A DNA stretch of 64,000 nt, taken from contig NZ_SNUS01000001.1 of assembly GCF_012027635.1 (NCBI RefSeq), positions 62,001-126,000 on the forward strand, in the 5' to 3' direction. Made by a program: the position numbers and the translations under genes. Each line of letters opens with the position of its first letter. The first letter of the stretch is position 1. A model generated the notes under the pieces. It made no database searches, had not been told where the DNA came from, and saw nothing but the letters and a program-made list of their open reading frames with translations. The stretch is from Thermococcus sp. 21S9. GTDB taxonomy: Archaea > Methanobacteriota_B > Thermococci > Thermococcales > Thermococcaceae. This document shows positions 4,508 to 61,976 of the stretch, one piece after another.

Positions 4508-4962
4508 TAAAGCTTCTTGATGCCGTGCGTTAGGAGGAACTCCTCGTGCTTCGTCCTCCTCTGCCTCTCCTGCACGTAAATCCAGCCCATAACGAAGATG
4601 AGCGATGCCATGCCAATGAGGGTCTGCCAGCCGAGCTGGTTGTAGTCAAGGGTGATTATAATCTTCCTCACCATCGCCAGAACGCCGAGCTCGACGACGT
4701 TCCTCATGCTGACGTGGTGCTCCTTGACGTACATGGTGAGCAGTTCAAAGATTTCGAGGAAGATTATGACGAGGACTATCTGGTGCAGGACCTCCTCGAT
4801 GTTGAAGGCGTGGAAGCTCTCGGTGATTAGGTTGAACATCAGGTAAACGACGTAGCCCATAGTTATCGTGGCGAGGCCTATGACAACTATGTCGAAGAGC
4901 AAGCTGAGCCACTTCAGGAGGAGGTTCTCAATGATTCCAACGTCATGGTGCTTCCTTCCCAT
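4507..4962 (-). CDS. PsiE-like membrane protein
   Basis: 151 aa with about four membrane segments (near residues 13-35, 42-52, 63-80 and 118-130). Segments HQIVLVIIFLEIFELL and the conserved VSMRNVVELGVLAMVRKIIITL match the phosphate-starvation-inducible PsiE family. The function of PsiE proteins is not known. A short cytoplasmic tail (ERQRRTKHEEFL) ends the protein. GGGTGTG precedes the ATG. It stands alone on the minus strand between the divergent ACD gene and FEN-1. Confidence 0.75.
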   Translation of the reverse strand: MGRKHHDVGIIENLLLKWLSLLFDIVVIGLATITMGYVVYLMFNLITESFHAFNIEEVLHQIVLVIIFLEIFELLTMYVKEHHVSMRNVVELGVLAMVRKIIITLDYNQLGWQTLIGMASLIFVMGWIYVQERQRRTKHEEFLLTHGIKKL

Positions 4963-5128
4963 TTACACACCCAACCAATCCTTGGCCCATTCGCTAAAAA
5001 CTTTTCGGCAAACCTAAGGGTTCTTCGAAAGCCTAAGAAATCCTCGCTGAGAATTTTGAAACATCAGTTGGGAACTTCAGGTGTTTTAACGTCCGTCGAG
5101 TCCGATATCGGCAAAAAGAGAAGGGAAA

Positions 5129-5136
5129 GGTTTTAA
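5129..5136 (+). promoter_or_regulatory. BRE/TATA promoter of the ACD alpha gene
   Basis: GGAAAGG followed by TTTTAAC, about 30 nt before the ATG at 5164 and 55 nt before the preferred ATG at 5185. The purine-rich element and TATA are in the usual archaeal order. Confidence 0.5.
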
Positions 5137-5184
5137 CTGGCTTTTACAGACGTAAAAGTGTAAATGTCATCCGAGGTGATAAAA

Positions 5185-6576
5185 ATGGTTGACCCGAACA
5201 TCGAAGCCCTTTTCAGGCCGAAGAGCATCGCCGTGATAGGTGCCTCCGAGAAGCCGGGCAAGATAGGGTACGCGATTATGAAGAACCTCGTGGAGTACGG
5301 CTACGAGGGCAAAATATACCCCGTCAACATCAAGGGCGTTGAGATTAAGATTGGCAACCGCGTTTTCAAGTCCTACAAGAGCATTCTTGAGGTTCCCGAT
5401 GAGGTCGACATGGCCGTCATCGTTGTTCCCGCCAAGTTCGTCCCGCAGGTCGTCGAGGACTGCGGAAAGAAGGGCGTTAAGGTTCTCCCGATTATCAGCT
5501 CAGGTTTCGGTGAGCTCGGTCCAGAAGGCAAGAAGGTCGAGGAACAGCTCGTTGAGACCGCCAGAAAGTACGGCATGAGAATCCTCGGCCCGAACATCTT
5601 CGGTGTCGTTTACACTCCAGACAAGCTCAACGCCACCTTCGGCCCGACCGACGTCCTTCCGGGTCCGCTCGCGCTCATCAGCCAGAGCGGTGCACTTGGA
5701 ATAGCCCTCATGGGCTGGACTATCCTCGAGAAGGTCGGCCTCTCAGCGGTCGTCAGCGTTGGAAACAAGAGCGACATAGACGACGCTGACCTGCTCGAGT
5801 TCTTCAAGGAGGACGAGAACACCAAGGCCATACTCATCTACATGGAGGGAGTTAAGGACGGAAGGCGCTTCATGGAGACCGCGAAGGACGTCAGCAAGGT
5901 CAAGCCGATAGTCGTCATAAAAGCCGGAAGGAGCGAGCGCGGTGCCAAGGCCGCCGCTTCCCACACAGGCTCTCTCGCGGGAAGCGACAAGATTTACGAT
6001 GCGGCGTTCAAGCAGGCGGGAATAATAAGGGCCTACACCATCGGCGAGGCCTTCGACTACGCGAGGACCCTCAGCAACCTCCCCGAGCCCCCTGGAGAGA
6101 ACCTCGTCATAATCACCAACGGCGGTGGAATAGGCGTCATGGCCACAGATGCGGCCGAGGAAGCCGGCCTGCACCTCTACGACGACCTCGAACAGCTCAA
6201 GGTCTTCGCCAACTACATGCCACCCTTCGGTTCCTACAAGAACCCCGTTGACCTGACCGGTATGGCCGGCGCCGAGGGCTACGAGGGAGCCATCAAGGCC
6301 GCCCTTGAGCACCCGGAGATGCACAGCATAGCGGTTCTCTACTGTCAGACCGCTGTACTTGACCCGAGGGATTTGGCCGACATAGTCATCCGCGAGTACA
6401 ACGCCAGCGGAAGAAAGAAGCCCCTCGTCGTTGCCATCGTCGGCGGAATCGAGGCCAAGGAAGCCATCGACAGGCTCAACGAGGAGGGAATCCCAGCCTA
6501 TCCGGAGCCCGAGCGCGCTATCAAGGCCCTCGCGGCGCTTTACCGCTGGAGCAGGTGGAAGGCCAAGCAGGAGTGA
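5185..6576 (+). CDS. acdA: Acetyl-CoA synthetase (ADP-forming), alpha subunit
   Basis: 463 aa. Converts acyl-CoA, ADP and phosphate to acid, CoA and ATP, the main substrate-level phosphorylation of peptide and sugar fermentation in Thermococcales. N-terminal CoA-binding Rossmann domain (FRPKSIAVIGASEKPGKIG), then two ligase-CoA domains. His260 in AASHTGSLAG matches the phosphorylated His257 of the Pyrococcus furiosus alpha subunit. The C-terminus ends before any ATP-grasp domain, so the beta subunit must be encoded elsewhere. ATG 5185 follows GAGGTGAT at 5173-5180; ATG 5164 is the longer alternative. The isoform closely resembles ACD I. Confidence 0.93.
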   Translation: MVDPNIEALFRPKSIAVIGASEKPGKIGYAIMKNLVEYGYEGKIYPVNIKGVEIKIGNRVFKSYKSILEVPDEVDMAVIVVPAKFVPQVVEDCGKKGVKVLPIISSGFGELGPEGKKVEEQLVETARKYGMRILGPNIFGVVYTPDKLNATFGPTDVLPGPLALISQSGALGIALMGWTILEKVGLSAVVSVGNKSDIDDADLLEFFKEDENTKAILIYMEGVKDGRRFMETAKDVSKVKPIVVIKAGRSERGAKAAASHTGSLAGSDKIYDAAFKQAGIIRAYTIGEAFDYARTLSNLPEPPGENLVIITNGGGIGVMATDAAEEAGLHLYDDLEQLKVFANYMPPFGSYKNPVDLTGMAGAEGYEGAIKAALEHPEMHSIAVLYCQTAVLDPRDLADIVIREYNASGRKKPLVVAIVGGIEAKEAIDRLNEEGIPAYPEPERAIKALAALYRWSRWKAKQE

Positions 6577-6627
6577 AGCCTTCCCAAACTCTTTTATACT
6601 TTTACTGCGTAATTCGACCGGGGCGGT

Positions 6628-7413
6628 ATGAAGCTCTGGTTGAGAATTTTAGGGGTCGTTCTCCTTGTCACAGGTCTCGTTCTCACTGCAACGTACAACC
6701 GGCCGGACTGCTCCGGAATAGCCTGTCCTGTGGTATTCCCTGCCCTCGAACTCTCGAGTGTCCACATTGAAAACGGGGGAAACGTAAACGCCTACGTTCT
6801 CGCCTTCGAGGGGAACTGTAGCGATGAGTCCTACGAGGTAATCTCCGATAACGGCCACATCTGGTTCCAAAGGAGGGGCTACCTCTACGCAACGGATGAA
6901 ATCCGCCACTTCGAGGTCTTCTACGTTCCTGGATGCAGGGGAAACCTGACGCTCTACGCGGTCAGCACGTACTTCTCAGGTCTGGCTCCCCCAAACGTTA
7001 CCTATGATGGCCACTTCGTCTTCCGCTCCGATTACCGGCTGAACCTGAGCGAGTTCTACGTGACCGCGTCCGGGCTCATCGGCTTCAAAGTCGGTGATCG
7101 GTTCAGCATTTTCTACAGCCCCGATTTCCACCGGCTGAAGGCCATTTACGAGAACGGGACCCTCCGCGTGGGCGACGTCCTCTACGAAAGGAACCTTTCG
7201 GGGATTGAGATACGCCGGGGGACCCGGGTCTCGGAACTCGTGGTTTACGACAACCCACGGGAGTACCTCCGGGCAAGAAACTGCACCGAGCACTACAGGG
7301 AGATTGTTGAGGCCTGCCGGGCCAGCGGTTCTCCAGAATACCAGTTCCCCATTGGAATCGTCATGGCCTTCGCCGGTCTCGTCCTGCTCCTGCTGGGATT
7401 GAAAGGGAGGTGA
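6628..7413 (+). CDS. Membrane-anchored extracellular protein, paralogue of the next gene
   Basis: 261 aa, not recognised. One hydrophobic segment at residues 5-21 and one at about 240-258, with a beta-rich extracytoplasmic region between them carrying several N-glycosylation-type NxS/T sites. Residues about 45-120 align with the following protein: NGGNVNAYVLAF against NGGSVDAHILAV, then RRGYLY against RRGDLY, then LTLYAVSTYFSG against VTVYYASGDYAG. Cysteines come in pairs (DCSGIACP, NCTEHYREIVEAC), which may form disulfides. It has its own TATA (CTTTTATAC near 6590), and the next gene starts 4 nt after its stop. Confidence 0.75.
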   Translation: MKLWLRILGVVLLVTGLVLTATYNRPDCSGIACPVVFPALELSSVHIENGGNVNAYVLAFEGNCSDESYEVISDNGHIWFQRRGYLYATDEIRHFEVFYVPGCRGNLTLYAVSTYFSGLAPPNVTYDGHFVFRSDYRLNLSEFYVTASGLIGFKVGDRFSIFYSPDFHRLKAIYENGTLRVGDVLYERNLSGIEIRRGTRVSELVVYDNPREYLRARNCTEHYREIVEACRASGSPEYQFPIGIVMAFAGLVLLLLGLKGR

Positions 7414-7417
7414 AACC

Positions 7418-8287
7418 ATGAAAAAGAAGCTTGCAGTACTCGGAGTTGCCCTGATACTTGTGGGGGCGGTTCTCTTCGTTTATTCCAGCTCTGGAAATTC
7501 GGGCTCCGTGAACAGTGCGGATATTCACTTCTCGTGGGCTGGAATCAGGGTTGTTCAGAACGGTGGTTCCGTCGATGCCCACATCCTGGCAGTTCGCGTG
7601 CCCGTGAACTGGAGCTCCATCACCGTTGTAAACAACCCCGACGGGGGAAGGTACGTTTTCGTCAGGCGCGGTGACCTCTACTATCCGGAACAACCGGTTT
7701 ACTTCAAGAACATCTACGTGGAGAACCTCCCCCCACGGGAGAACGTCACGGTCTACTATGCGTCGGGAGATTATGCAGGCATTCTACGGGTTGAAGCAGA
7801 CCACATCACTGTGAGCCCCGGGTCAGGAGGAATTCACCTGCTCCTCGACTCCGACGGCTTCAAGGTCAACGTCACCGAACCCAGAGGGGCCATTTACGTT
7901 GGCAGTACGCCTGCCATGGTTTTCTCAAACGACTCCTTCCGGGTCGGAAACAGAACGTTCCCCGGAACACCCGTTCAGCTCCTCCTTTCGTATGCCCCCT
8001 GCGCTGGTAAGGGAATTGGCTACATCGTAATGGTATCCACTCCCGGTGGCTCAAATGTGTACAACGGCATCATTAAAACCCCCGAAACGACAACCCCAAC
8101 CAAAGTAACCTTTGCCCCCGGTTTCAGGTTCACAACCCTTCTGGTGCTCCACAATTACACCACGTATATGAAAGCGTATTTCGGGATTTCCTGCCCATCC
8201 AACAGCTCCAGGGGAGGCCTCAGCTGGCCCTTAATTCTGGCGATTTCAGGTTCTGTCCTCGTGCTCGTGGCACTGTTCAAGAGATAA
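7418..8287 (+). CDS. Membrane-anchored extracellular protein, tandem paralogue
   Basis: 289 aa. Same layout as the preceding gene: N-terminal hydrophobic segment (residues 4-22), beta-rich outer region with many NxS/T sites, and a C-terminal membrane helix (about 268-286) followed by FKR. The outer region is longer, with a Gly/Ser/Pro-rich stretch and a Thr-rich linker (PETTTPTKVTF). AGGGAGGTG precedes the ATG. The pair probably arose by tandem duplication and may form a heteromeric surface structure; no function can be assigned. Confidence 0.75.
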   Translation: MKKKLAVLGVALILVGAVLFVYSSSGNSGSVNSADIHFSWAGIRVVQNGGSVDAHILAVRVPVNWSSITVVNNPDGGRYVFVRRGDLYYPEQPVYFKNIYVENLPPRENVTVYYASGDYAGILRVEADHITVSPGSGGIHLLLDSDGFKVNVTEPRGAIYVGSTPAMVFSNDSFRVGNRTFPGTPVQLLLSYAPCAGKGIGYIVMVSTPGGSNVYNGIIKTPETTTPTKVTFAPGFRFTTLLVLHNYTTYMKAYFGISCPSNSSRGGLSWPLILAISGSVLVLVALFKR

Positions 8288-8299
8288 GGGGGTGTAAGC

Positions 8300-8998
8300 G
8301 TGCTCATAGCACTCATAAGCGATATTCATTCGAACCTTGAGGCCCTTGAAGCCGTGTGGGACGAGATTAAGGAAGCAGACACTTTCCTCTGCATGGGTGA
8401 CCTCGTTGGCTACGGCGCTTCCCCGAACGAGGTCGTTGAATTTGTGCGGAAGCAAATGGAGAGGAGAACCTTTCTCTGCATCCGCGGGAACCACGACAAC
8501 GCCATAGCCTTCGGCGCGGACTGGAGCTTCAACCCCTACGCGAGGCAGGCTGTAAGGTGGCACCAGCGCGTCATTACTGTCGAGAACCTTGAGTTCCTCA
8601 GACGACTTCCGGTAAGGCAACTCTTCACGGACGACACGGGCAGAAGCTACCTTCTCATCCACGGCTCGCCGAGGGCCCCCCTCGACGAGTACCTCTTCCC
8701 CTGGCTTCCCGAGAGCGAGTTTAGAGCGGTTCTGAGCTACGTCCGCCAGGACGACCTGCTTCTCGGCCACACACACGTGCCGATGCTGAAGGTGATTGAG
8801 GGGAGACGGATAATAAACCCGGGCTCGGTGGGCCAGCCAAGGGACGGGGACTGGAGGGCGAGCTACGCGCTGATAGACACGGAAACGGGAGAAGTGACCT
8901 TCCATCGCGTCGAATACGACGTTGAAGAGAGCGCGAGGAAGATAATAGAGGCAGGATTGCCAAGGTTTTTAGCGGACAGGCTCTTCGAGGGCCTTTAG
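8300..8998 (+). CDS. Metallophosphoesterase (YfcE/MJ0936-like)
   Basis: 232 aa. Calcineurin-like metal site: D8 and H10 in LISDIHSNLEALE, CMGDLVGYG, RGNHDNA, LIHGSPRAP, and the GHTHVPM block, ending with NPGSVGQPRDGD, which is typical of the YfcE/MJ0936 phosphodiesterase group. Predicted cytoplasmic, two metal ions, substrate not known. GTG start at 8300 after GGGGGTG. It is the last gene of the run that starts with the two membrane proteins; its stop overlaps the convergent PRC-barrel gene by 4 nt. Confidence 0.9.
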   Translation: MLIALISDIHSNLEALEAVWDEIKEADTFLCMGDLVGYGASPNEVVEFVRKQMERRTFLCIRGNHDNAIAFGADWSFNPYARQAVRWHQRVITVENLEFLRRLPVRQLFTDDTGRSYLLIHGSPRAPLDEYLFPWLPESEFRAVLSYVRQDDLLLGHTHVPMLKVIEGRRIINPGSVGQPRDGDWRASYALIDTETGEVTFHRVEYDVEESARKIIEAGLPRFLADRLFEGL

Positions 8999-9330
8999 TC
9001 CTTTTTCTTCAGACCGCCTTCGAGTGTTCCCCTCGGTCTCGGGGAGGTTGCCTTCGGAAGGCGTTTGAGCTTGGAGCGGACGGCGAGCTTGTTGGTGTCT
9101 ATTATTATGACCTCGCCTATGCTCTTCACCGCGCTCACGGGGATGAGGAGAAGCCCCTCGTGGTCTGTAACGAACTCGCTCGTGTCGAGGTCCTCGTCGG
9201 GCTCGGCGACGATTACAAGGATTTCACCGGTCTCCTCGTCGAAACTGAGGTCGTAGACCCACCCGAGTCTTATTCCAGTGTCAGTTATGAGCTCAACATC
9301 CCTAAGCTTGGATGCCATTATCTTGACCAT
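8995..9330 (-). CDS. PRC-barrel domain protein
   Basis: 111 aa. A beta-rich PRC-barrel: KLRDVELITDTGIRLGWVYDLSFDEETGEILVIV, then GLLLIPVSAVKSIGEVIIID. PRC-barrels occur in RimM and photosynthetic reaction centre H subunits; free-standing archaeal forms have an unknown, probably RNA- or protein-binding, role. The start at 9330 follows GAGGTGG; ATG 9318 is possible. The basic tail (LKRLPKATSPRPRG) could contact nucleic acid. TATA on the minus strand near 9378-9388. Confidence 0.8.
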   Translation of the reverse strand: MVKIMASKLRDVELITDTGIRLGWVYDLSFDEETGEILVIVAEPDEDLDTSEFVTDHEGLLLIPVSAVKSIGEVIIIDTNKLAVRSKLKRLPKATSPRPRGTLEGGLKKKD

Positions 9331-9418
9331 CTCCGCCACCTCTGGGATTAATCGTGTAACCCCTTGGGGATTAACGTATAAAACCTTTTTCCAAAGGAAT
9401 CCAAAAACGGGAAGGGAA

Positions 9419-9832
9419 TCAAGCCTTCTTGGCCTGCAACTCCTGCGCCCTCTTAGCCAGCTCCCCGAGCTGGGCCTCAAGCTTCTTAAGCGCTTCCTGG
9501 GTCTTCGCGATTGCCTCATCGTACTCCTTTATGCGCTCCTCGAGGTATTCGATGGCGCTATCGAGGTTCTTCTCGACGGCGTAGCCGGCGCCAACGCTCA
9601 CAATCGCGTTCTCCTTGTCGGTTATCCTGCCCTTGAGGAAGGAACCGGCCCCAATCGGAACGAGGATTTCAACCTCTCCCTCGGTCTTCTTGAGCTCCTC
9701 CAGCGTCTCCTTGACGGCCTTGAACTCGTCCCTTCCAAGGGTGAGGAGCTCAAGGTTCTGGGCCAGCAACTGAGCCTGCGCCTGCAGGAGCTGATACTCG
9801 TAAGCGAGCTTCTCCATCTCCTTCTCAACCAT
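9419..9832 (-). CDS. pfdA: Prefoldin subunit alpha
   Basis: 137 aa. Two long coiled coils (about 1-45 and 95-137) joined by a beta-hairpin region, including [34 protein letters not shown] and [23 protein letters not shown], all diagnostic of archaeal prefoldin alpha. Prefoldin is an alpha2-beta4 jellyfish-shaped holdase that hands unfolded proteins to the thermosome. ATG 9832 is preceded by GGTGGT; the GTG at 9841 lies in that ribosome-binding site. The beta subunit is not in the window. Confidence 0.93.
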
Positions 9833-9894
9833 CGCTACCACCGGAGAAACTACGGAGGGAGGCTTTTAAGGTTTGGGTTAAAAGAAAAGGGGAA

Positions 9895-10785
9895 TCAACC
9901 GAGGATTTCCTCAGCGATTCTCTCGGCAATCTCCTTGAGCGCTTTGCTCGCCGGGCTGTCGGGGAAGGCCTCGACAACCGGCTTAAGCATCGCCATGCTC
10001 TTTGGAATGGCCCTGTCGTAGGGGACCTCGCCGATAATGGGAATCCCCTCGGCCTCGGCCCACTCCCTAAGGGCGGTAAAGCCCGGGTTCAGGTCGGCCT
10101 TGTTGACTATCAGGTAAGCAGGTTGCCTGAAGTGCTGGACGACCTTGTAAGCCCTCTGAACGTCGCTGAGCGAGGCGGGAGTAGGCTCAGCAATCAGTAT
10201 CGTCAAATCGGCCCCGCCTATGCTCGCTATCACCTGACAGCCAATTCCAGCAGCGGAGTCAACTATCATGTGCTCCAGGTTGAGCTCGTCCATCAGCTTC
10301 TTTGCCCACTCCTTCTCCTCGGTGACGAGCTTACCGCTCTCGGGCCTGCCGACGTCGAGCTGGGCCGAGATTATCGGGAATCCGTACTTGGTGGTTGCCT
10401 TTCTGATGACGCCGGAGCGGGCCTGCTCAAGGGTTATAGTGCCCGGAACTGGGCAGACAAGGCCACAGACGTTGCAACCCTCGCAGGTGAGCTCGTTGAC
10501 GACGTAGTTGCCGTCCTCGTCGATGTAGATGCTCTCGTATGGACATCTTTCATAGCAGATTCCACAGCGGACGCAGGTCTCGGTGTTTATCCTAGCAACC
10601 TTAGCCCCGATGTGCTCGCGCTCCTTATCCCATTCCTCAACGCCGAGGAGAAGGCCGAGGTTCGGCGCTTCGGCATCCGCATCAACCGCTATGAGCCTGT
10701 ATTTATCCTTCAGGAAGTAGAGGAGCGAGGCCGTTATCGTGCTCTTCCCGACGCCACCCTTACCGCTCGCAATCGCTACCTGCAT
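9895..10785 (-). CDS. MinD/Mrp-type ATPase with inserted ferredoxin domain
   Basis: 296 aa. Deviant Walker A GKGGVGKST (residues 8-16), DADAEAPNLG switch, and an inserted 2x[4Fe-4S] ferredoxin domain at about 68-115 with the pattern CVRCGICYERCP and CEGCNVCGLVCPVPG. Such ATPases occur beside NifX/MTH1175 proteins and in ORP operons, where they are thought to handle metal-cluster assembly. The ATG overlaps the TGA of the upstream ATPase. The two proteins are paralogues and probably act as a pair. The tail (SKALKEIAERIAEEILG) is complete. Confidence 0.92.
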   Translation of the reverse strand: MQVAIASGKGGVGKSTITASLLYFLKDKYRLIAVDADAEAPNLGLLLGVEEWDKEREHIGAKVARINTETCVRCGICYERCPYESIYIDEDGNYVVNELTCEGCNVCGLVCPVPGTITLEQARSGVIRKATTKYGFPIISAQLDVGRPESGKLVTEEKEWAKKLMDELNLEHMIVDSAAGIGCQVIASIGGADLTILIAEPTPASLSDVQRAYKVVQHFRQPAYLIVNKADLNPGFTALREWAEAEGIPIIGEVPYDRAIPKSMAMLKPVVEAFPDSPASKALKEIAERIAEEILG

Positions 10786-58220: not shown

Positions 58221-58274
58221 GTCAATCGCCATGAGGGGGTAAGAAAAAAGCTAATAAACCTAACCGCCCGAGAC

Positions 58275-59024
58275 CTAACCGTTGGCAGGGTGTGGACCCT
58301 CCTGCCCGGGGGAGAGGGGGACGTCTTTGCCCCCTCTCTCCTTCCTTCTGATGCGTGGCTTGAACAGCTTCTCGACCTCTTCTTGAACTTCCTCGGCTTT
58401 TCCGCTCAGAACGAGCTTTCCGTTGCCTATCACGACGACCCAGTCAACGATGGGCATCAGAGGCTCCCAGATGTGGCTTATGATTACGAAGTTGGTTTTC
58501 CCCCTCATATCCTCGATGATTTCAATGACTTTCTCCATGCTGTCAAAGTCTATATTGGCGAGAGGCTCGTCGAGGAATATCAGCTCTGGACTTCCTATGA
58601 AGGCCTGCGCGAGGCTCAATCTCTTTAGCATTCCCGAAGAATAACCGCTTATGCGCTTATCAATGAAGGTCTTCACCTCAAAGAGCTCCGCTACACGCCC
58701 AACTTCATCTTCACATGCTCCTTTGCTCTCTGCAAAAAGAGTGAGCCATTCCCGTCCCGTTGTGAACTGTGGAAAGGCCGGCGGGTCGTAGGCGACGCCG
58801 AAGCGGGCCTTGACTTTCCAGTTGTTCCATGGGGTTTCGCCGAACACCCTAATTTCTCCGGAGGTCGGCCTGTAAACCCCTGTGGCGAGCTTTAGGAAAG
58901 TGCTCTTTCCGCCACCGTTGGGGCCGAGGATTAGCGTGACTCCCTCTGGAATGCTAACCGTGACTCCATCAAGGGCGTGAATGCTCCCGAAGTGTTTCTT
59001 AAGGTTTCTAGCTTCGATTATCAT
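58275..59024 (-). CDS. ABC transporter ATP-binding protein
   Basis: 249 aa. Walker A GPNGGGKST, signature ISGYSSGMLKRLSLAQAF (the degenerate SSGM form seen in DrrA/CcmA-type ATPases), Walker B LIFLDEPLANID, H-loop VIISHIWEP. The last 25 residues (ERGGKDVPLSPGQEGPHPANG) are an unusual polar tail. It is the last of five minus-strand genes; GGAGGTGG precedes ATG 59024, which overlaps the preceding stop by 4 nt. ABC-2 type exporter partner: the gene at 59479. Confidence 0.93.
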   Translation of the reverse strand: MIIEARNLKKHFGSIHALDGVTVSIPEGVTLILGPNGGGKSTFLKLATGVYRPTSGEIRVFGETPWNNWKVKARFGVAYDPPAFPQFTTGREWLTLFAESKGACEDEVGRVAELFEVKTFIDKRISGYSSGMLKRLSLAQAFIGSPELIFLDEPLANIDFDSMEKVIEIIEDMRGKTNFVIISHIWEPLMPIVDWVVVIGNGKLVLSGKAEEVQEEVEKLFKPRIRRKERGGKDVPLSPGQEGPHPANG

Positions 59025-59482
59025 CTCTTCCACCTCCAGACCACGAGTGCTAGAAGGAGTGCAAAGGCGGAGCCGCTGATGTATAGAGAGTTTTGAACCT
59101 CCTTGGTCGGGTAGTTTTTAATAAATCGGAGGGAGCAGGTTAGTTTGTCCGTGCCGTTGTTGATTATCAGATAGTCCCCCTCATGGGGGAGGACAAACTG
59201 ATATCCGGCATGACCGTAAACGGTATGTTTATCCACCAGCTCCCCGGTTATGATGTCGTAGACCTCAACGACCCCGTTACCACTGCAGGAAGCCCCGATG
59301 AGGGAGCTCGTTGGGGTGTGCACCGTTACGGTGCTGAGGCTGGTGACGTTTCCCTGGTGTCCCACCGGCTGGAGAAAGAGGGGACCTATTGAGCCGACCT
59401 CGTTCTCATAGGAATCATAGACCCACAGGGAACCGATGGTGAGCAGGAGCATCGCGGAGAGAAGGGCCGCCCAGAACCTCAT
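59021..59482 (-). CDS. Hypothetical membrane-anchored protein of the ABC operon
   Basis: 153 aa. Membrane helix at 3-20, outer beta-rich part with NxT/S sites, two Cys (SLIGASCSGNG and KLTCSLRF) that may pair, and a C-terminal helix (about 132-149) ending RWKR. GNGVVEVYDIITGELVDKHTV has a cohesive beta-domain look. No family recognised. Overlaps both neighbours by 4 nt, so it is surely part of the transporter operon. Confidence 0.75.
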   Translation of the reverse strand: MRFWAALLSAMLLLTIGSLWVYDSYENEVGSIGPLFLQPVGHQGNVTSLSTVTVHTPTSSLIGASCSGNGVVEVYDIITGELVDKHTVYGHAGYQFVLPHEGDYLIINNGTDKLTCSLRFIKNYPTKEVQNSLYISGSAFALLLALVVWRWKR

Positions 59483-60246
59483 ACCACATCCCTCCTTTTG
59501 ATGAGAACCCATGAGAGGGCAAAGAGGGCCAGCGGGACGAGAAGGCCCCAGCTGACGTACTGAGCCGTGAAAGGCGTGAAGTCAGTACTTCCGCTCCTGG
59601 AGATAGCGTTGATGAAGAGTTGAGGGGGCAGGTTAGAGACCCCGGTCACGCGGGGCGCGTATATCACCGCGAAGCCGACCATGAATGCGAGGAACGCGTT
59701 TGGAGAGATGAGAGAAGTCAGGGTGCCAACAGCTATTAGGTAGAGCACCATGAAGACCACTAGAACTAACGCGTCTCCAATGAAACTGGAGGTTATCGCG
59801 GGAAGATAACCGGCTATGCTTGCATATGTTGTTACAGTGATGTAAGTAAAGGGTAAAAGTATCATTATAAATCCGTAGATGAAGAGTGAGAGAAGTTTAA
59901 CTCCAAATATCTCCGTGTTTGAATATGGAAGCGAGTAAACTGAGAGTGCAATCCCACTGTCCCTGTCATAGCGGAAGGTCAAGGCCCCAAGAAGCAGGAT
60001 TAGGAAGCCCATCAGGGTCCAGACATCGTTGAGGGAGAGCAGACCCAGTATTGACGTCGAAACCCCGGAGGCCTTTGACGCGCCAAAGAGTTGAACATCC
60101 ATTCCCGATGCGAATCCAACGCTCGAGCTAACCCCCATCAGAAACCTCTTCATGGCCATTCCAACGAGGAGTATTCCAAAAAATAGAAGAACGTTCTTTA
60201 TTACGTCGTTCATTTCCCAGCGGAAGAGTTTGTAAAGCCTTCCCAT
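59479..60246 (-). CDS. ABC-2 type transporter permease
   Basis: 255 aa, six membrane helices. Begins MGRLYKLFRWEMNDVIKNVLLFFGILLVG and has TLMGFLILLLGALTFRYDRDSGIALSVYSLPYSNTEIFGVKLLSLFIYGF, the ABC-2 pattern (RD..G....LLS.P.S...I...K). With the ATPase at 58275 it would form an exporter. GGGAGGTAGTC precedes the ATG, 4 nt after the stop of the gene before it. Confidence 0.88.
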   Translation of the reverse strand: MGRLYKLFRWEMNDVIKNVLLFFGILLVGMAMKRFLMGVSSSVGFASGMDVQLFGASKASGVSTSILGLLSLNDVWTLMGFLILLLGALTFRYDRDSGIALSVYSLPYSNTEIFGVKLLSLFIYGFIMILLPFTYITVTTYASIAGYLPAITSSFIGDALVLVVFMVLYLIAVGTLTSLISPNAFLAFMVGFAVIYAPRVTGVSNLPPQLFINAISRSGSTDFTPFTAQYVSWGLLVPLALFALSWVLIKRRDVV

Positions 60247-60250
60247 ATGA

Positions 60251-61315
60251 CTACCTCCCCGGTTTCTTTACCTTGCTAATTCCAGCCGTTACCAAGAGAA
60301 CCACGAGGGCTCCGTAAAAGACGTAGGCCGTTTTAACGTCCGGTCTGTGAAAGCTGACGGTGTTGGATTTTTTAACGCCCGTTTTAAACGACTTCAGTAC
60401 AAGCCCCACCGCGTAGAAGTCATCGTGTTTAACTTCCACTTGATACAAGGCGTATTCATCGGAGAAGGACGTGCTTAGAACACCAACGGCCCAGAGGTCG
60501 GACCCGCCGTTCGGCGTGAACACGAGCTTTCCATCCGATGCGTCGAACGTGTAAATCAGGGTTGCCATCTGAACGATCTCGATGGGATACCCCTTCCCAA
60601 ACGGCTGGGTCAGGTTAAACGAGTACCTGTCGGTAACCACGGTCTTGAGGGGCGGATAATAGGTGATATTCTTCCATCTCTTCGGATTCTTGTTGTCTAC
60701 CATAACCCTGCCGACAACTGTGCTGAAAGGGTACTTGGAAAACGTACTGCCCTTTTCGAGCGGGTGCAACAGGTTGTCAAAGAGCATCGTGTGGCCGTAG
60801 GCTTTTCCGTTCTTTACAACCTGCATGTCGGCTTCTCTGATGAGATACGAGCCGGTTATCGTAACTTTCCGAAGTCTGAACACGTACCAGGTCCAGTCCT
60901 TGAAATCCGGGTCATGGCTCTTCTCGGTTTTCGCCGACAGAACTTCAGACTCATTCCAAAAGACTGGAGGACGAACTCCTTTAGGAAGAACCGTCATTAC
61001 AGTGACGTTGCTGAGCTCTATTTGAACGTGCGAAAGAATGTATCCATTGTTTTCATCGGAGAAGTTGAACCGTATCACGGTGTCGTTGTACGTTTTTATA
61101 ATGTAAAGAACCCCAGAGTAGTTGTAAATCATCAACGAAGTGGTTATCCAGTCAGGTTTGTCCCCGTGGGAGACGCGGTAGTGAATGTATGGGTTGTATC
61201 TTGAGGAAATATACGTTAGTGACACATAGCCCCCAACCCCTGACGAAGCGCTTGCAAAGGATGGAATTACTATTATCATTAACATGAGAGAACATATTAA
61301 TAAGTATCTCCTCAT
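60251..61315 (-). CDS. Large secreted, membrane-anchored protein of the ABC operon
   Basis: 354 aa. Signal peptide at 1-23 ending SFASA, a beta-rich extracellular part of about 300 residues with many Tyr and several NxT/S sites (NYSG, NDTV, NVTV, NITY, NLTQ), then a C-terminal helix (about 328-345) and KKPGR. Not recognised. GGAGGGGGC precedes the ATG. It sits between the small secreted protein and the permease, so it may bind or process the exported product. Confidence 0.78.
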   Translation of the reverse strand: MRRYLLICSLMLMIIVIPSFASASSGVGGYVSLTYISSRYNPYIHYRVSHGDKPDWITTSLMIYNYSGVLYIIKTYNDTVIRFNFSDENNGYILSHVQIELSNVTVMTVLPKGVRPPVFWNESEVLSAKTEKSHDPDFKDWTWYVFRLRKVTITGSYLIREADMQVVKNGKAYGHTMLFDNLLHPLEKGSTFSKYPFSTVVGRVMVDNKNPKRWKNITYYPPLKTVVTDRYSFNLTQPFGKGYPIEIVQMATLIYTFDASDGKLVFTPNGGSDLWAVGVLSTSFSDEYALYQVEVKHDDFYAVGLVLKSFKTGVKKSNTVSFHRPDVKTAYVFYGALVVLLVTAGISKVKKPGR

Positions 61316-61366
61316 ATTGCCCCCTCCAGAGATTAAAAAAGAAGTTTAAAAACAAGCAGATAGTGT

Positions 61367-61690
61367 TCAAACGTATGGCCACCCAGCAGATGAAACTACC
61401 TTGTGATACCCGTCTATGGTTACTATGGTCTCAGCCCCATTCGGATCAGGTATTATTGTAACTCCTGTAAGGACGTGAGCTCCGTAAGCACCCCCGCCTC
61501 CAGTCCTATACGTGATGTAGTAGTTTAGGTAGGGGTGCTGAACATCGTACTTGACTCCAATCTCCGTCCAAGAGTATCCATACGAGTCACTGTTGTATCT
61601 CCTAACTGAAGTAACAGCCCAAGTCGTCGCTGCCACGAGTCCAGTAGCTACTACCAAGAGTCCAAACAGCACGGCAACCAGCTTCTTCAT
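61367..61690 (-). CDS. Small secreted protein, possible export substrate
   Basis: 107 aa. N-terminal signal-like segment MKKLVAVLFGLLVVATGLVAATTWA; the mature part (about 80 aa) is rich in Tyr, Gly, Ser and Thr (YNSDSYGYSWTEIGV, YYITYRTGGGGAYGAHVLTG) and ends VVSSAGWPYV. No Cys, no known family. First gene of the operon; GGAGGGTCGGAACT precedes the ATG, and TATA-like elements lie at about 61760-61771 and 61783-61797. A bacteriocin-like, pilin-like or structural role is possible; none can be claimed. Confidence 0.72.
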   Translation of the reverse strand: MKKLVAVLFGLLVVATGLVAATTWAVTSVRRYNSDSYGYSWTEIGVKYDVQHPYLNYYITYRTGGGGAYGAHVLTGVTIIPDPNGAETIVTIDGYHKVVSSAGWPYV

Positions 61691-61976
61691 AGTTCCGACC
61701 CTCCTGCCCGGGGGCAATTAATACGCTCGACCGGGCGATTGATACTATCCTTGACTTGGTATTTAACTTTTACTTCGAAATTGAGATATAAATTCCAAAA
61801 AAAAAATCGACCATAATGGAGATGGAATGGACACAGTGCAAATAATGAAGCGAATTACTTCACGTTAATAACTGGATTATACCAAGATTGGCGAAGTTGT
61901 TTAACAAAAATGTTATACTCCTAACGGAAAAATTTCGAAGACTAAAAATGATGAACGAGTATCGAATTTCGAACCT

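Follow-up and report, generated by a model that had tools for sequence, protein, structure and literature searches.

Lactococcin 972-type operons encode a small secreted protein with a Sec leader, rich in Gly and aromatic residues and in beta structure, and, after it, a large membrane protein and an ATPase of the ABC (ATP-binding cassette) type. In Vibrio cholerae, clusters of the type VI secretion system (T6SS) carry an effector, its cognate immunity gene and then immunity genes of foreign types (PMC5361080), and in Thermococcales the order-specific, hypervariable and shuffled surface-protein loci named VARTIG modules have been proposed to serve in conflict or recognition (PMC8416519). The locus described here is a cassette of five genes in Thermococcus sp. 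21S9, found at positions 58275-61690 on the minus strand of a stretch of 64,000 nucleotides, which was analysed as a whole and is called the window (contig NZ_SNUS01000001.1, positions 62,001 to 126,000). We consider it fairly likely that the cassette is a polymorphic effector-immunity locus, in which a small secreted protein (SSP) would be the effector, a larger anchored ectodomain protein (LA) its cognate immunity protein, and the remaining genes, for a permease (PERM), a small anchored protein (SA) and an ATPase (ATP), a generic ABC module.

A sequence-only reading of the window had proposed a five-gene exporter operon, and the operon, its gene order and the positions of all five open reading frames were confirmed on the minus strand as follows.

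61367-61690, minus strand: SSP, 107 aa, with a leader (residues 1-22), a conserved core (23-60) and a type-specific end (61-107, terminating in SSAGWPYV)
60251-61315, minus strand: LA of type A, 354 aa, with a leader, a beta-rich ectodomain and a C-terminal transmembrane (TM) segment
59479-60246, minus strand: PERM, an ABC-2-like permease of 255 aa with weak ABC2_membrane matches in Pfam
59021-59482 or 59021-59512, minus strand: SA, 153 or 163 aa, with hydrophobic segments at the N- and C-terminus
58275-59024 (ATG start) or 58275-59033 (GTG start), minus strand: ATP, an ABC ATPase of 249 or 252 aa (PF00005, E=5e-21)

The tight junctions described in that reading are real, but there are four junctions rather than five, and three of them are tight: LA and PERM are 4 nt apart, PERM-SA and SA-ATP overlap (the SA start at 59482 gives a 4-nt overlap with PERM, and 59512 is the alternative start), and a gap of about 51 nt separates SSP from LA. 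Because the gene order is kept in 25 other Thermococcus genomes, the layout is not a product of chance. The SSP leader (MKKLVAVLFGLLVVATGLVAAT) is hydrophobic and Sec-like, and the part after it (about 86 residues) has about 11 Gly and 11 Tyr, with no Cys in the protein. PERM has 5-6 TM segments and only sub-threshold ABC2 matches in Pfam, but its relatives always adjoin the ATPase gene; with an ABC ATPase and a multi-TM permease, ATP and PERM constitute an ABC transporter of an ABC-2-like kind.

The pairing of SSP with LA carries the effector-immunity reading. The comparison covered 94 Thermococcales genomes and 21 other genomes of the phylum, with one genome per species and several drafts among them. 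SSPs at the window's site have the leader and core in common and are split into types by their last 45-60 residues, and a tree of 45 LAs gave clades A-F and a singleton; with the letters of the clades and the SSP types assigned from inspection of tree and sequences, each SSP type precedes the matching LA clade and the LAs further downstream in a locus fall in other clades. Since the LAs of one genome are spread over different clades, the LA arrays are not simple duplications. In Mantel tests, which remove ancestry and linkage in part only, the SSP variable region of 20 SSP-LA pairs correlated with the first LA (r=0.85, p=0.0002), whereas the controls were flat for the SSP variable region against PERM (r=-0.04) and for the SSP leader against LA (r=-0.06). 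The corresponding values in ten multi-LA loci were 0.94 for SSP against the first LA and, as a flat control from the same loci, -0.08 against the last LA, and ten pairs of an independent paralogous type (type II, described below) gave 0.90 against the first LA and -0.19 against PERM. The putative effector and immunity genes adjoin and co-vary as a pair, independently of the delivery genes, and the ABC module, since it does not co-vary with the SSP type, must serve all SSP types.

The same pair is the unit of exchange. In genome G025 the flanks are near-identical (99% for the EF-2 protein, 94% for the DNA of the flanking gene that we call MptA-like from family resemblance, and 86% for the ATPase), and between them DNA identity is 51% in the SSP variable part and 52% in LA; the SSP-LA pair has been swapped between species, with the transporter genes staying put. 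This genome carries a tandem SSP-LA-SSP-LA arrangement, and two SSP-LA units are also found in the type II cassettes of G014 and G080. Foreign-type orphan LAs, which are the putative immunity genes, are kept without their SSP, and arrays hold 2-4 LA types. SSP is truncated or absent and LA still open in G014, G032, G044, G015 and G072, and SSP-less type II loci occur as well; G029, with SSP missing and LA broken, is an exception. A lone LA in G015 (locus L044, oriented 8744-9826), with no SSP or ABC genes of the cassette family nearby, is closest to the LA of the cassette in the same genome. The bias in decay, with small counts, fits immunity outliving the effector, as was argued for the T6SS arrays of Vibrio (PMC5361080).

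The likeness to those arrays (PMC5361080) lies in the replacement of the pair while shared machinery stays, and in immunity genes of one genome that do not cluster together. Unlike them, the cassette has no detectable parts of T6SS, contact-dependent inhibition (CDI), Rhs or type VII secretion (T7SS) systems; its putative effector is about 85 aa with a secretion leader of its own, its immunity candidate is outward-facing and anchored, and it has its own ABC module and terminal repeats.

At the window's site the cassette is present in 26 of the 94 Thermococcales genomes, a patchy distribution of the kind that the sequence-only reading had named as support for antagonism, and we found neither a presence in all Thermococcales nor a known transporter role. 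PERM orthologues (at least 64% identity) occur in 26 of the 94 genomes, every one of which also has LA, and those of the 25 other genomes are 64-87% identical to the PERM of the window; with the window protein as query, relatives of LA were found in 29 of the 94 and clear SSP matches in about 22. The cassette mostly lies between the MptA-like gene and an HD-domain gene near EF-2, with a rearranged arrangement in G024, and in ten cassette-free genomes the two are separated by -1 to +31 bp. Its limits were defined by comparison with the empty site of a close relative, G062, where the aligned flanks (92.5% and 88.5%) meet exactly.

58231-61973, no strand assigned: inserted cassette, by comparison with the empty site of G062

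The flank is 94% identical to that of G022, for which gene-by-gene identities were left unused because of the poor flank alignment. A two-gene unit (61 aa and 87-91 aa) is located at the MptA-HD junction in L041, L043, L046, L047, L053, L054, L056, L193 and L194, and presumably is RelE/ParE-like, judging by eye from its sequence flavour. Since this unit is also present there in several genomes, the junction looks like a hot spot, which suggests a preferred site for small conflict systems.

The cassette is bounded by a perfect 17-bp direct repeat, which had been overlooked in the sequence-only reading, and is preceded by a promoter element.

61697-61713, minus strand: 5' terminal direct repeat CCCCGGGCAGGAGGGTC, containing the Shine-Dalgarno sequence of SSP
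58295-58311, minus strand: 3' terminal direct repeat, at the 3' end of the ATPase gene
61760-61775, minus strand: TATA-like promoter element AAGTAAAAGTTAAATA upstream of SSP, conserved among 22 related upstream regions compared by eye

The element GGGCAGGAGGGTC has exactly two mismatch-free occurrences in the window genome, one at each cassette end, and a paired direct repeat of 15-25 bp was found in all 21 loci for which both ends are readable. Copies within a locus are more alike than copies of different loci (0.43 vs 1.19 mismatches per 15 nt; permutation p=1e-4), and G025 has one copy ahead of each SSP and one at the cassette end. G056 (L186:7829) and G034 (L194:7435) have lost the cassette and keep a single hybrid copy, flanked on the left by the promoter and leader side of SSP and on the right by the 3' side of ATP; these single hybrid repeats are excision scars. 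A search around the other cassette types gave nothing above the shuffled background, and the repeats are therefore limited to the cassette type of the window's site. Divergence at four-fold sites is 0.29 in the SSP leader against 0.58 for its core, with 0.54 for PERM and the MptA-like gene, and because of the low value in the leader, promoter, repeat and leader together may act as a homology arm in exchanges. Spread of the cassette by viruses or plasmids is unsupported, since plasmids, among which those of Thermococcus may be under-represented, had no LA, and viral contigs had no relative of SSP or PERM. In the 5' leader of SSP (61697-61745, minus strand), a dyad ATCGCCC-N4-GGGCGTAT lies downstream of the TATA box and is kept in most relatives in the alignment; it is possibly an operator or a leader hairpin.

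On the effector-immunity reading, SSP would be secreted and would act on those other Thermococcales cells in which the matching LA is missing, with its type set by the variable C-terminal half. The LA encoded directly downstream, with which the pairing is observed, would face outward from the membrane and, at the surface, bind or block SSP and so shield the producer, and further LAs would match other SSP types and protect from rivals, in the manner of bacterial orphan-immunity arrays. PERM, SA and ATP would form one type-independent ABC module, which may export SSP by way of the conserved leader or may serve in membrane efflux like LanFEG; "exporter" in the sequence-only reading is thus one of two options, as the SSP leader is Sec-like and the module could equally expel a toxin. 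Exchange of SSP-LA units between species would use two regions for recombination, the permease side and the conserved arm of promoter, repeat and leader. Recombination between the terminal repeats may remove the cassette as a whole. More tentatively, and with less confidence than we have in the effector-immunity assignment itself, the cassette may be an effector-immunity element of Thermococcales alone that is bounded by repeats and can be excised and exchanged, with the repeat as a working exchange site, SSP-LA units entering at the front, older LAs remaining as an immunity array, and new folds; it would then be the first such conflict system in hyperthermophilic euryarchaea.

SSP is probably antagonistic, and the protective role of LA is likewise putative. 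Several observations weigh against this assignment. No toxin family or fold could be recognised in SSP, whose structural model is weak; in G016, a draft genome, SSP is intact and its LA is frameshifted, with a second LA also broken; and neighbouring genes are transferred together, so that linkage alone gives some correlation, which the PERM and last-LA controls limit and do not remove. Matched neighbours would also be expected for ligand-receptor or subunit-anchor pairs. In the first of these alternatives, self/non-self recognition or signalling, SSP would be a ligand, LA its cognate surface receptor and the ABC module a transducer or ligand exporter, in a kin-recognition, quorum-like or mating-type-like system. 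Cognate pairing and polymorphism fit it equally well, and the makeup of LA, a surface ectodomain with a single C-terminal TM segment, speaks for it; however, Pfam and NCBIfam searches of the cassette revealed neither a kinase nor a regulator nor a cytoplasmic signalling domain, and immunity more easily explains receptors kept without their ligand and arrays of as many as four LA types. We judge signalling unlikely.

A lower probability is given to surface assembly, in which the ABC module would be an exporter, SSP a surface subunit or adhesin that is secreted, and LA the anchor or chaperone dedicated to it, with variation serving virus escape. Every product except the ATPase is a membrane or surface protein, surface variation as virus escape is plausible, and conservation is higher in the leader than in the mature part, as with a dedicated export leader; yet the low synonymous divergence of the leader suggests recombination and not peptide selection alone, anchors without a subunit are common (SSP lost, LA kept), and several unrelated anchor types stand in one locus. 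An ordinary ABC transporter whose substrate would be a lipid, metabolite or drug and whose surface proteins would be accessories, with no relation to conflict, is very improbable. The generic ABC-2/drrA-like character of the ATPase and permease speaks for it, but the patchy presence, fixed hot spot, polymorphic cognate partner, pseudogene pattern and excision scars would all be unexpected. The effector-immunity reading is preferred, and the proposal of an undescribed secretion or antagonism system with immunity is partly borne out by patchy spread, transporter-independent SSP-LA pairing, foreign-type LA arrays and loss of SSP with retention of LA.

Profile searches of each protein, as that proposal had recommended, gave a Pfam family above cut-off for ATP alone, and none, in Pfam or NCBIfam, for SSP, LA or SA. 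The nearest NCBIfam models of ATP are drrA and then galliderm_ABC, with scores far under both cut-offs, and PADLOC matches were limited to the ATPase domain of ATP, with none in SSP, LA, PERM or SA. The predicted model of LA, a confident one (predicted local distance difference test, pLDDT, 86.5; ectodomain mostly >90), consists of a beta-rich ectodomain followed by a TM helix, and has no significant relative among PDB and viral structures by Foldseek. The SSP model, with a pLDDT of 65, shows a leader helix and five strands, and a fold search with this low-confidence model gave no significant match in PDB.

These searches bear on membership in known families. Lactococcin 972, for all the similarity of operon and secreted protein, has a large 7-TM protein in place of the ABC-2-like permease, and the cassette was found in Thermococcales only; membership has no support, as ten SSPs of differing types gave no lactococcin 972 match in Pfam or NCBIfam up to E=10. 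The bacteriocin of that family folds as a small beta sandwich, and the low-confidence SSP model gave no significant fold match. An ABC-2-type efflux module with a surface immunity protein recalls the lantibiotic self-protection transporters LanFEG with LanI, and galliderm_ABC is the second-best NCBIfam model of ATP, but the cassette has no modification enzyme, LA does not look like a lipoprotein by eye, and the ATP score lies far under the galliderm_ABC cut-off; the lanthipeptide signature, a Cys-bearing precursor clustered with a lanthionine synthetase, is absent, the window SSP having no Cys. VARTIG modules (PMC8416519) are likewise Thermococcales-specific, variable and shuffled surface-protein loci, but they are built on large Ig-domain proteins (arCOG07710), and the phrase "ABC transporter" does not appear in the main text of that paper; the cassette, which has no Ig-like or CARDB match and a 107-aa protein at its 5' end instead of arCOG07710, was not assigned to them. 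TMcin bacteriocins (PMC12328743) share a small peptide with a hydrophobic N-terminal helix and a beta part, and ABC genes; the cassette differs in having no TmcP-like protease, DsbA or Cys and a larger beta part in SSP, and no LA-like partner was reported for TMcin.

A search of the open-access literature found no description of such a Thermococcales system, while a prior mention is possible (e.g., in the archaeal antimicrobial survey of Makarova et al., mBio 2019). Bacteria are known to have polymorphic effectors, adjacent immunity and orphan arrays; those systems include neither these proteins nor the ABC module or the terminal repeats, and Thermococcales are not among their hosts. If the reading is true, a widespread weapon-and-immunity family without recognisable relatives, with up to 13 LA copies per genome, would exist in organisms of very high temperature, and inhibition between strains should be predictable from their SSP types. 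Module exchange without an obvious integrase can be tested on the terminal repeats and excision scars, and SSP and LA could yield very heat-stable binding pairs.

The cassette belongs to a wider family with the layout [SSP]-[LA]x1-4-PERM-SA-ATP. By an LA profile search, 61 of the 94 Thermococcales genomes have members, with as many as 13 in a single genome, and the 21 further genomes compared from the phylum have none. PERM paralogues (about 30% identity) lead to cassettes ordered LA-PERM-SA-ATP at other chromosomal sites, many of which are preceded by another small secreted protein of like size and place, often without evident similarity to the SSP of the window. The window genome itself holds two more LA-PERM-SA cassettes at 1.32 Mb (L121, C1:1316000-1331000, about 4825-10166), the second of which is preceded by a decayed, frameshifted SSP remnant of a different type. 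The type II cassettes (L162-L172, L176-L179) have a Cys-bearing SSP family (STQSCWTPWDHNSDV...) and carry an extra surface protein of 530-580 aa, with PEGA domains in both members tested, and some type II loci contain two SSP-LA units or up to five LAs.

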